A DNA stretch of 64,000 bases, from positions 186,001-250,000 of the forward strand of contig JAUIEJ010000009.1 of the NCBI GenBank assembly GCA_030428885.1. The letters run 5' to 3'. Positions 1 through 59,312 of this stretch are shown here, one piece after another (position 1 is the first letter of the stretch; every line of letters starts with the position of its first letter). The notes beneath the pieces are model-generated. The model saw only the letters and a program-made list of their open reading frames with translations. It was not told the DNA's origin and did no database searches. The DNA is from Gemmatimonadota bacterium. GTDB taxonomy: Bacteria > Gemmatimonadota > Gemmatimonadetes > Longimicrobiales > Gaopeijiaceae. Position numbers and translations under genes: made by a program.

Positions 1-2487
1 CACGCTTTCGCCCTCGAAGAAGCCCTGCCCCGTGGATTCGCCGCCCACCGGCGCGTCACCGAACTGAAGCGCCGGCGCCGGATCGAAGAGCACGGCGCCC
101 TCGGCCATGACGGCGTCGGACATCTGCTGGAGCGGCGCGATGTCCACGATCCAGATGGACCGGCCGTGGGTTCCGGCGATGAGCTCCCGGTCCCGGGGGT
201 GGATCTTCAGGTCGTGCACCGGAACGGTGGGGAAGCCGTTGTGGAACCGCTGCCAGTTGTCGCCGCGATCCGTCGACACCCAGACGCCCAGGTCGGTGCC
301 CACGAAGAGCAGGTTCTCGTTGACCGGGTCCTCCCGGACCACGTGGGCGAAGTTGGGTCCGTCGGCGGGCCATTCCTGGGGAATGCCGGCGGCGATGGAG
401 CGGAAGGCGCCGCCGTCGTCGTCGGTGACCAGCACGTACGGGGTGAAATCGTTGCGCCGGTGGTTGTCGAAGGTGACGTAGAACCGGGCCGGGTCGTGCT
501 TCGAGGGCTCGATGCGGCTCACGTAGGTGCCCTCGGGCACGAGGCCCTCGACCCGGTCGGTGAGTTCGGTCCAGGTGCCCCCGTCGTCGGGGCTCATCCA
601 CAGGCGGCCGTCGTCGGTGCCGGCGTACAGCTTGCCCCGCACCAGGGGCGACTCGTCCAGCGAGACGATGGTGGCGAAGGTCTCGGCCCCCGTCACGTCG
701 GGCGTGATGCCCCCGGTGGTGCGGGTCGACACCTCGATCTTCTCCGGGTCGGCATACGAGAGGTCGTCGGAGATGACCTGGAGATCGTCCCCCCGATTCG
801 TGCTCTTCAGCACCCGGTTCGCCGCGGCGTAGAACACCTCGGGGTCGTGGGGCGAGATGAAGAACGGGGTGTTCCAGTTCCAGCGCAGCTCCCGGGCGGC
901 CGAATCGGCGCGCTGCATGTCACGGAACCGGTCGATGCGGGCCTGGGCCTCGGTGGGGGGCGCGTTCAGCGAGTCGTCCCACACCACGAGAATGGAGTCC
1001 TCGTACTCGATGTAGCGGTCCCGCCACTCGGGCTTCTGCAGCCCGGTCCGGTCGCCCGTGGCCAGGTTGAGGCGGGCCATGTTTCCGCCCTGAGACTCGG
1101 CCCAGACCACGTCGTGATCCGTGGGGTGCTGAGCGGTGACGAAGCCGTCGCCCCCGCTGATGGTGGCCCACATGGCGTTGGTGATGGATCCGCCCGAGCG
1201 ACGGGAGGGCCCACACCAGGTGCCGTTGTCCTGGAGGCCGCCGCACACCCGATACGGCGTGTCCATGTTGTACGTCACGTGGTAGAACTGGCCGATGGGG
1301 AAGGTGTTGGGCACCCACCAGTTTCCGCCCTTGTCCCACGTGATGGCGATGCCGCCGTCGTTGCCCACCACGATGTGGTCCGGATCGCCCGGGTCCATCC
1401 ACATGGCGTGGTGATCGACGTGCACCCCCACGGTGGTGTTGCCGGCGGTGCGGCCCCCGTCGTCGGAGTACTTCACGGGCGTGGACGAGAAGTAGACCCG
1501 GTCGGGGTTCGCCACGTCGACCCGCACCTGGGAGTAGTAGAACGGACGGGTGTTCTCGTCGTTCACCTTCTCCCAACTGGCGCCGGCGTCGTCCGAGCGG
1601 TACAGCCCGTTGCCGCCCGAGCCGTCCTCCTCCTCCTCGGCTTCCACCATGGCGTACATGACGTCGGGGTTGGAGGCCGCCAGGGCGAGGCCGATGCGGC
1701 CCTTGGTGGCCGTGGGGAAGCCGCTGCCCACCACCTCGGTCCAGCTCTCGCCGCCGTCGGTGCTCTTCCAGAGGGCCGAGCCCGGTCCACCGCTCTGGAG
1801 GAAGTAGGGTCCCCGCACCCGCTCCCAGCTCGACGCGAAGAGCACGTCGGGATTTCGCGGATCCAGGACCACGTCCACGAACCCGGCCTCGTCGCTGACG
1901 AACTTCTTCAGTTCCCAGGTCTCCCCGCCGTCGGTGGTCTTGTAGAGACCCCGCTCCGGGTTCGATCCCCAGATGGCGCCGAGAGCGGCCACGTACACGA
2001 TGTCGGGATTCGTGGGATGGACCACGATCCGACCGATGGCCTGGGTCTGCTCCAGCCCCATCAACTCCCACGTCATGCCCCCGTCCACCGACTTGTAGAC
2101 CCCACTGCCCGGCGAGATGGAGTTCCGGGAGTCCGGCTCCCCCGTCCCCGCCCACACCTGGAGGGAGTCGGAGGGGGCGATGGCGAGATCGCCCATGCTG
2201 ATGACTCGGCCCTCGTCGAAGACCGGGCGGAAGGTGACCCCGTTGTTGGTCGTCTTCCAGATGCTTCCGCCGGCGGCGGCCACGAAGAAGGTTTTGGAGG
2301 GCGAGCCGATGCCCTCCACGTCCGAGACCCGGCCCATCATGTTCGCCGGCCCCACCGACCGCCAGCGGAACTGGTCCATCATGTCGTCGTCCAGGGGCGT
2401 GGAAAGCTGGGCACTCGCCGGCGCCACGAGGGCCGCCGTGGCGAAGAACGCCAGCGCCCGGGACCACGAACGCATCGCACCTGCCAT
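1..2487 (-). CDS. Sortilin/VPS10-type secreted beta-propeller (3' end cut by window edge)
   Basis: Secreted protein of the sortilin-like glycosyl-hydrolase-repeat family (about 829 codons visible). The frame stays open to base 1, so the C-terminus lies outside the window. The N-terminus is a signal peptide (MAGAMRSWSRALAFFATAAL, then an ASA-Q cleavage site). Repeated Asp-box motifs follow, such as TTDGGETW, STDGGESW, SDDAGASW and PDDGGTW, which mark blades of a large propeller. GLQDNGTWCGPS and the late GTHGRSIWI motif are typical of these bacterial proteins. The start at 2487 is preferred because AAGGTGAG precedes it; a second in-frame ATG lies 12 bases downstream. Family members are exported, but their substrate is usually unknown. 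No enzymatic residue can be assigned from sequence alone. It is divergent from the ClC gene and shares a 139-bp intergenic region with it. Confidence 0.9.
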   Translation of the reverse strand, partial: MAGAMRSWSRALAFFATAALVAPASAQLSTPLDDDMMDQFRWRSVGPANMMGRVSDVEGIGSPSKTFFVAAAGGSIWKTTNNGVTFRPVFDEGRVISMGDLAIAPSDSLQVWAGTGEPDSRNSISPGSGVYKSVDGGMTWELMGLEQTQAIGRIVVHPTNPDIVYVAALGAIWGSNPERGLYKTTDGGETWELKKFVSDEAGFVDVVLDPRNPDVLFASSWERVRGPYFLQSGGPGSALWKSTDGGESWTEVVGSGFPTATKGRIGLALAASNPDVMYAMVEAEEEEDGSGGNGLYRSDDAGASWEKVNDENTRPFYYSQVRVDVANPDRVYFSSTPVKYSDDGGRTAGNTTVGVHVDHHAMWMDPGDPDHIVVGNDGGIAITWDKGGNWWVPNTFPIGQFYHVTYNMDTPYRVCGGLQDNGTWCGPSRRSGGSITNAMWATISGGDGFVTAQHPTDHDVVWAESQGGNMARLNLATGDRTGLQKPEWRDRYIEYEDSILVVWDDSLNAPPTEAQARIDRFRDMQRADSAARELRWNWNTPFFISPHDPEVFYAAANRVLKSTNRGDDLQVISDDLSYADPEKIEVSTRTTGGITPDVTGAETFATIVSLDESPLVRGKLYAGTDDGRLWMSPDDGGTWTELTDRVEGLVPEGTYVSRIEPSKHDPARFYVTFDNHRRNDFTPYVLVTDDDGGAFRSIAAGIPQEWPADGPNFAHVVREDPVNENLLFVGTDLGVWVSTDRGDNWQRFHNGFPTVPVHDLKIHPRDRELIAGTHGRSIWIVDIAPLQQMSDAVMAEGAVLFDPAPALQFGDAPVGGESTGQGFFEGESV

Positions 2488-58616: not shown

Positions 58617-59312
58617 CTACTTCAGGCTCCAGAACGGGCCCGCGAGCCCCACGTCGGCGAAGATGGCCTCCATCCGTTCCACGGTGGGGCGTCGCCACTC
58701 CAGAGCCTCCCGCCCGCGATACCAGAGGCGCGCCAGGTGCCAGCACTGGGCCATGGTCAGGACGGCCCCCGGTCCGACGTCACGGGATGCGCACCAGCGC
58801 TGGGCATGCTCTTCCGACCGGAAGACGAGAATCGTCGCTCAGGTGAATCCGACGTTCTCCCAGAACCGTTTCGGCGGGACCAGGAAGTGGACCACCGCAT
58901 GGGACTCGACATGGCCCTGGCGCACGCCGAAGACGAGGGAATCCCCGCAGTCGGCACACTGGGTGTGGACCTCGGCGTCGACACCCAGCAAAGCCGAAAC
59001 ACCCAGGGCGTCCCAGGCGCAGTTCGCCCAGTACGTGCGTTGCGCCGTCGTCACCGGGTACGCCGTGGGCACCGCCGAAAACGGAAAGGCCATCCACACG
59101 TTCCGCGTGCCCGGAGCCAGGGCGATGGCATGGGCTGCGGCCAGCCGATCGATGGACCGGGCGACGGCGTCGAGGGGCAGATCCAGGGCCGAGGCCAGGC
59201 CGGCGGCCGTGGGCGCGCGGGCCGTCTCCATGAACGACTGGTAGATCCCGTGACGGACCCGTCGGTCGATCTCGTCCTCGTGGCCCGGAAGAGGCTCGCG
59301 GTGCATCGCCAC
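58617..59312 (-). CDS. Alkylmercury-lyase (MerB)-like protein with in-frame TGA, probable selenoprotein
   Basis: Protein of 231 residues if the TGA at 58839-58841 is read as selenocysteine (Sec158). N-terminal winged-helix part, then YWANCAWDALG with C98 and D101, matching MerB C96 and D99; VHTQC119 matches MerB C117. The sequence ENVGFT-U-ATILVF then places Sec158 in the region of MerB C159/C160. After the TGA the same frame continues with FRSEEHAQRWC and ends VGLAGPFWSLK before TAG at 58617, which is the typical C-terminus of MerB-like proteins in my recollection. A hairpin with a GGUC loop lies 19 nt past the TGA. MerB cleaves carbon-mercury bonds; the substrate here is inferred. Start GTG 59312 follows AGGGAG. 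A C-to-stop nonsense mutation cannot be excluded. Confidence 0.75.
58810..58825 (-). promoter_or_regulatory. Candidate bacterial SECIS hairpin
   Basis: On the coding strand TCTTCC-GGTC-GGAAGA forms a 6-bp perfect stem with a GGUC tetraloop. A seventh pair is possible past one bulged G. Nineteen bases separate the UGA from the loop; in E. coli fdhF the loop GGUC lies 18 bases after UGA, recalled from the published element. It lies inside the coding frame, as bacterial SECIS elements do. Binding by SelB is inferred. Confidence 0.6.

Follow-up and report, generated by a model that had tools for sequence, protein, structure and literature searches.

A MerB-family gene of a Gemmatimonadota bacterium with a predicted selenocysteine codon and a downstream SECIS-type hairpin

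Selenium binds mercury more tightly than does sulphur. Selenocysteine (Sec) is specified in bacteria by a UGA codon together with a hairpin, the SECIS element, and that of E. coli fdhF consists of a GGUC loop on a short stem positioned 18 nt after the UGA, with SelB reading the G and U of the loop; the upper stem of this element contains a bulged U. A published model of the bacterial SECIS (bSECIS) allows a loop of 3-9 nt with a G within the first two loop positions and a stem of 4-16 bp (PMC13188914), along with a spacing of 16-37 nt and a minimum free energy at or below -7.5 (PMC13188914). Amongst organometallic lyases, SaoL (NF040728) is a MerB-like protein of a different system that is already recognised as a selenoprotein and bears a CU motif (PMC13188914). 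It is the sole MerB-like entry in a catalogue from 2026 that covers 119 families and subfamilies of prokaryotic selenoproteins (PMC13188914), and the 'alkylmercury lyase MerB-like protein' of a 2022 review has the same representative accession as SaoL (PMC9312934). For MerB itself, Cys96, Asp99 and Cys159 have been treated as catalytic (PMC8261052, PMC4525700).

Within the window, the whole 64,000-nucleotide stretch that was analysed, a predicted MerB-family selenoprotein gene was located on the minus strand at 58617..59312. It would encode 231 amino acids with a TGA read through, ending at a TAG stop and starting at a GTG codon at 59312, with an ATG at 59306 as another possible start. The in-frame TGA (58839..58841, minus strand), which we read as Sec, is residue 158 of the product and takes the place of MerB Cys159. 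The read-through product matched the Pfam MerB family (PF03243) with 104.4 bits against a gathering score of 27, in a match that spanned the TGA, and the 73 amino acids downstream of the TGA matched MerB when searched alone (5.7e-6). A reading made earlier from the letters of this DNA, hereafter the sequence-only reading, had placed the stop codon at a Cys site, and the alignment bore this out, in that the TGA codon fell on the Cys of the MerB2 (5c17) segment 'GGTCKQIHYF' that corresponds to MerB Cys159. The codons for Cys98-Ala-Trp-Asp101 (motif WANCAWD; 59010..59021, minus strand) supply, by alignment, the equivalents of MerB Cys96 and Asp99, so that Cys98 and Asp101 are both present at the catalytic-site positions and the third is the TGA/Sec codon.

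An AlphaFold2 model of the protein, with Cys placed at the TGA, had a pLDDT of 94.7 and a MerB fold, and structural comparison of this model gave VIA Z scores of 19.1 to MerB2 (5c17) and 16.3 to MerB (3f0o). The score against NF009710, the equivalog model of plasmid-type MerB, was 42.4 bits and thus below the 193-bit cut-off. Judged by these matches, the gene is a member of a divergent MerB subfamily and no equivalog of the plasmid-type MerB. Many genome annotations probably list genes of this subfamily as truncated MerB.

On the minus strand from 58841 to 58810, the TGA is followed by 13 nt and then by TCTTCC-GGTC-GGAAGA, giving a TGA-to-loop spacing of 19 nt. The putative SECIS hairpin (58810..58825, minus strand) is made up of the 5' stem arm TCTTCC (58825-58820), the loop GGTC (58819-58816) and the 3' stem arm GGAAGA (58815-58810). 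RNAfold returned an identical 6-bp stem and tetraloop at 58825-58810, such that both the letters and the folding agreed with the element and the loop distance given in the sequence-only reading. The spacing of 19 nt, the 4-nt GGUC loop, the 6 bp and the energy of -13.5 kcal/mol over 51 nt all lay within the bSECIS limits, and an Rfam scan of the region returned no match to a SECIS-like family. The stability of this single sequence was rejected as evidence for a SECIS, given that the hairpin was of average stability for the local GC-rich DNA (z = 0.00) and that a loose bSECIS filter was passed by 21% of random TGAs. The combination of a GGTC loop with 6 pairs at 16-25 nt past a TGA was another matter, being found at only one of the 982 TGAs in the window (any frame, both strands) and at none in 20 mononucleotide-shuffled strands; the sequence-only reading had judged a chance origin unlikely.

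Homologues were gathered from relatives, from 395 genomes of the phylum, from GTDB species contigs and from further retrieved stretches; the distinct genes obtained numbered 72 with TGA and 31 with Cys. All 72 of the former, which originated from the Gemmatimonadota, Acidobacteriota and Chloroflexota, carried the TGA at one fixed site, and protein conservation carried on past it. Either TGA homologues without a hairpin, or a hairpin equally conserved in Cys homologues, had been named in the sequence-only reading as an outcome that would speak against a SECIS. What was found at 16-25 nt past the codon was a hairpin whose tetraloop contained GG and whose stem had no fewer than 5 bp, in 66 of the 72 TGA genes and in none of the 31 Cys genes, that is, conservation in TGA homologues only. 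Likewise, TTCCGGTCGGA was present at the fixed place in 64/72 TGA genes versus 0/31 Cys genes. In the apical loop (58816..58819, minus strand), the GG was retained in 72/72 TGA homologues and the T in 68/72. Five of the six exceptions (L029, L047, L051, L055 and L112) were folded by RNAfold into an apical hairpin with a larger, 6-nt loop that still held the GG. The sixth (L044, from genome G002 of the same genus; gene at about 1516-1818, minus strand) had a stem mismatch, TTC to TGC, together with a second in-frame TGA; this MerB gene may be decaying, and some other genomes of the genus are without the gene. From these comparisons, the same predicted combination of UGA and hairpin recurs across several phyla, in dozens of bacteria from soil and water.

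Conservation of the stem was limited to the top 5-6 bp, with no conserved lower stem amongst the TGA homologues. A bulged G lower in the stem, as described in the sequence-only reading, can indeed be drawn here, with C58827 pairing with G58809 around G58826, but it was not conserved: positions 14 and 32 could pair in 24 of the 72 TGA homologues, compared to 25.6 by shuffling. A lower stem with a bulged G was hence rejected as part of the element, its pairing being at the shuffled level.

No relatives were found on viral contigs. Plasmid relatives had up to 33.5% identity, and the two that were read through (H1 and H2) had a Cys at the site and another Cys replacing Asp101. One further Cys-type MerB (L084; G293:C167:2786-3154) had an in-frame TAG in the stretch searched.

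The hairpin could be explained as a by-product of a conserved F-R-S-E peptide in GC-rich coding DNA, with the TGA being a true stop or the mark of a pseudogene; TTC CGG TCG GAA does encode the FRSE peptide of the subfamily, and the single-sequence fold is ordinary, at a z of 0.00. The FRSE peptide, however, was kept only where the TGA was present, whilst the Cys homologues varied at +7 (Ala, Arg, Glu, Pro, Asp and others) and +9 (Pro, Arg, Ala and others). Moreover, the synonymous codons of the TGA genes were fixed far past codon usage. Arg at +7 was encoded by CGG in 70/72 genes (22.5 expected when the genes' own codon usage is applied) and by AGG in the other two, and Ser at +8 was encoded by TCG in 68/68 (26.1 expected). 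Pairing bases were kept even where the amino acid varied: residue +5 could be A, L, F, V, I, G or Y, yet the third base of its codon was C in 71/72 (33.6 expected), and residue +10 could be E, G, A, D or V, yet the first base of its codon was always G, the pairing partner. Given that the Arg and Ser codons are fixed, and that the +5 third base and +10 first base are fixed despite varying amino acids, the constraint is, as read from these alignments, one that acts on the RNA and not on the protein. The same single TGA, with an intact protein downstream, also recurs in dozens of genomes, and we therefore regard a by-product of the peptide as highly improbable.

Along the gene, the frequency of the commonest third base lay between 0.96 and 1.00 from codon +5 to codon +8 and was mostly 0.4-0.6 elsewhere; just upstream of the TGA it rose to 0.65-0.88, and an invariant Trp codon trivially gave 1.0. 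The five inner stem pairs were nearly invariant and too conserved to covary. The outermost pair (16/31) was T-A in 30 sequences and C-G in 20, but the tree accounts for this by approximately two or three changes, so that covariation is thin; U-G wobbles were seen at pair 18/29.

The same genome was found to encode SelA (519 bits, with a Pfam SelA match), SelB (317 bits, with the RNA-binding winged helices SelB-wing_2 and SelB-wing_3), a tRNA-Sec (74.5 bits, anticodon TCA) and SelD (355 bits), the last having an in-frame TGA of its own followed by a hairpin. As all four are encoded, decoding of UGA as Sec is to be expected in this organism. At the SelD locus (L080; G000:C15:127054-127992), the TGA lay at codon 11 of the match and was followed by the GC-rich hairpin GGCGCAG-GTT-CTGCGCC. 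Another SelB candidate, located on contig C7, was identified as EF-Tu, with ordinary tRNA genes next to it, and was discarded. Across genomes, tRNA-Sec was detected in 50/52 of those with a TGA-type MerB versus 13/23 of those with Cys types only, a comparison for which Fisher tests are descriptive only as shared ancestry is ignored. The two TGA-MerB genomes in which tRNA-Sec went undetected, G218 and G381, both had SelA, and their selC search matched tRNA-Ser and tRNA-Cys only; assembly gaps or a diverged selC are perhaps responsible (loci L101, L117, L145 and L146). Seven of the MerB genomes searched were without both tRNA-Sec and SelA, and all of these carried a Cys-type MerB.

The frame stays open if TGA is translated, which would also be expected under a general reassignment of TGA to sense (Trp, Gly or Cys) in the lineage, leaving the hairpin some other role. 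Such a reassignment we consider vanishingly improbable, for the homologues have one TGA each, at the Cys159 site, where close relatives have TGC, and the presence of SelA, SelB, tRNA-Sec and SelD in the genome also argues against it. Furthermore, reading TGA as sense in this DNA fuses unrelated frames into runs of 1000-2000 amino acids with about 15 TGAs, which indicates that TGA is an ordinary stop elsewhere. The hairpin is instead, very probably, a bacterial SECIS of otherwise standard type that directs UGA to be read as Sec in a MerB-type gene. Through its winged-helix domain, SelB would bind the GGUC loop with its stem of 5-6 bp and deliver Sec-tRNA-Sec (anticodon UCA), and the ribosome would then decode the UGA, which lies 19 nt upstream, as Sec rather than as a stop. 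Translation would thereby yield a complete MerB-family protein in which Cys98, Asp101 and Sec158 occupy the positions of MerB Cys96, Asp99 and Cys159.

For the phylogeny of the family, the residues at the codon and at the hairpin were masked. It was found that the TGA sequences made up the bulk of one subfamily of 80 sequences, and that ten Cys sequences were nested inside this subfamily as sister to two TGA sequences (support 91/92). From this tree, Sec looks to be ancestral in the subfamily, and, as the ten Cys sequences nest within it, the simplest reading is that the nested clade underwent a change of TGA to TGC with loss of the hairpin. This clade also has Asp101 changed to Cys. The motif W-x-N/P-C-x-W/Y-C, with the MerB Asp99 position changed to Cys alongside a Cys at 159, was seen in the Cys-type loci L018, L024, L082, L088, L089, L091, L092, L094, L100 and L116 as well as in the plasmid loci L152 and L153, the latter of which is annotated as merB despite the absent catalytic Asp. 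If correct, the nested reversion from Sec to Cys with its loss of the hairpin would constitute a natural experiment on SECIS decay, and would allow a single enzyme to be compared in its Sec and Cys forms for Hg-Se chemistry.

The role of the protein would most likely be the cleavage of carbon-metal bonds, probably those of organomercurials; the selenolate would serve as the second metal ligand, and the Hg(II) released could pass to the MerA of the genome. The substrate is nevertheless uncertain because there is no mer operon around the gene. It is possible, at somewhat less than an even chance, that the Sec reading is right and the substrate is not an organomercurial but another organometal or organometalloid, or that the role is one in redox or metal binding. 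No mer genes were found around the locus and none recurred in the neighbourhoods of 23 homologues, SaoL, the other MerB-like selenoprotein, is described as an organometallic lyase that belongs to a different system (PMC13188914), and the change of Asp101 to Cys in the nested clade suggests that the chemistry may vary within the subfamily. Conversely, the Sec members retain the places of the MerB catalytic triad (Cys98, Asp101 and the Cys159 site), and a MerA (548 bits) is encoded on another contig of the genome. In the same 23 neighbourhoods, 3 of the 110 neighbouring ORFs (homologues amongst L046-L075) matched DoxX/MauE-type small membrane proteins, possibly by chance.

We put at about evens the fuller proposal of an old and separate subfamily of organomercurial lyases, with Sec as one of two mercury ligands, that spread through the Gemmatimonadota, Acidobacteriota and Chloroflexota and in which a nested lineage reverted to Cys, lost the SECIS and changed the Asp99 position to Cys. 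What gives the locus its interest is less the hairpin, a SECIS of standard type, than the gene that carries it, which encodes a MerB-type lyase with a predicted Sec at the metal-binding site. As selenium has the tighter binding to mercury, a MerB with Sec at this position would offer a direct test of why a cell should bear the cost of selenium in the detoxification of mercury or of organometals.

Compared with the known systems, the element resembles fdhF and the bSECIS model in its GGUC loop and in its short stem, which lies within the coding region 18-19 nt past the UGA, so that the likeness to fdhF in loop and UGA distance drawn in the sequence-only reading holds. It differs from fdhF in having neither a bulged U in the upper stem nor a conserved lower stem. 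By its profile matches, the protein is a predicted MerB-superfamily selenoprotein of a subfamily other than SaoL. Like SaoL, it belongs to the MerB superfamily, with NF040728 aligning to residues 18-139, but it was not filed as SaoL because it scored 48.7 bits against the SaoL cut-off of 140, and its motif is TU where that of SaoL is CU; the two are set apart by model score and motif. None of the NCBIfam models calls the present subfamily. With MerB and MerB2 (PF03243; 3f0o and 5c17) the protein shares the predicted fold and the Cys96, Asp99 and Cys159 positions, and it departs from them in its predicted Sec for Cys at 159, its identity of about 20-25% and its location outside a mer operon.
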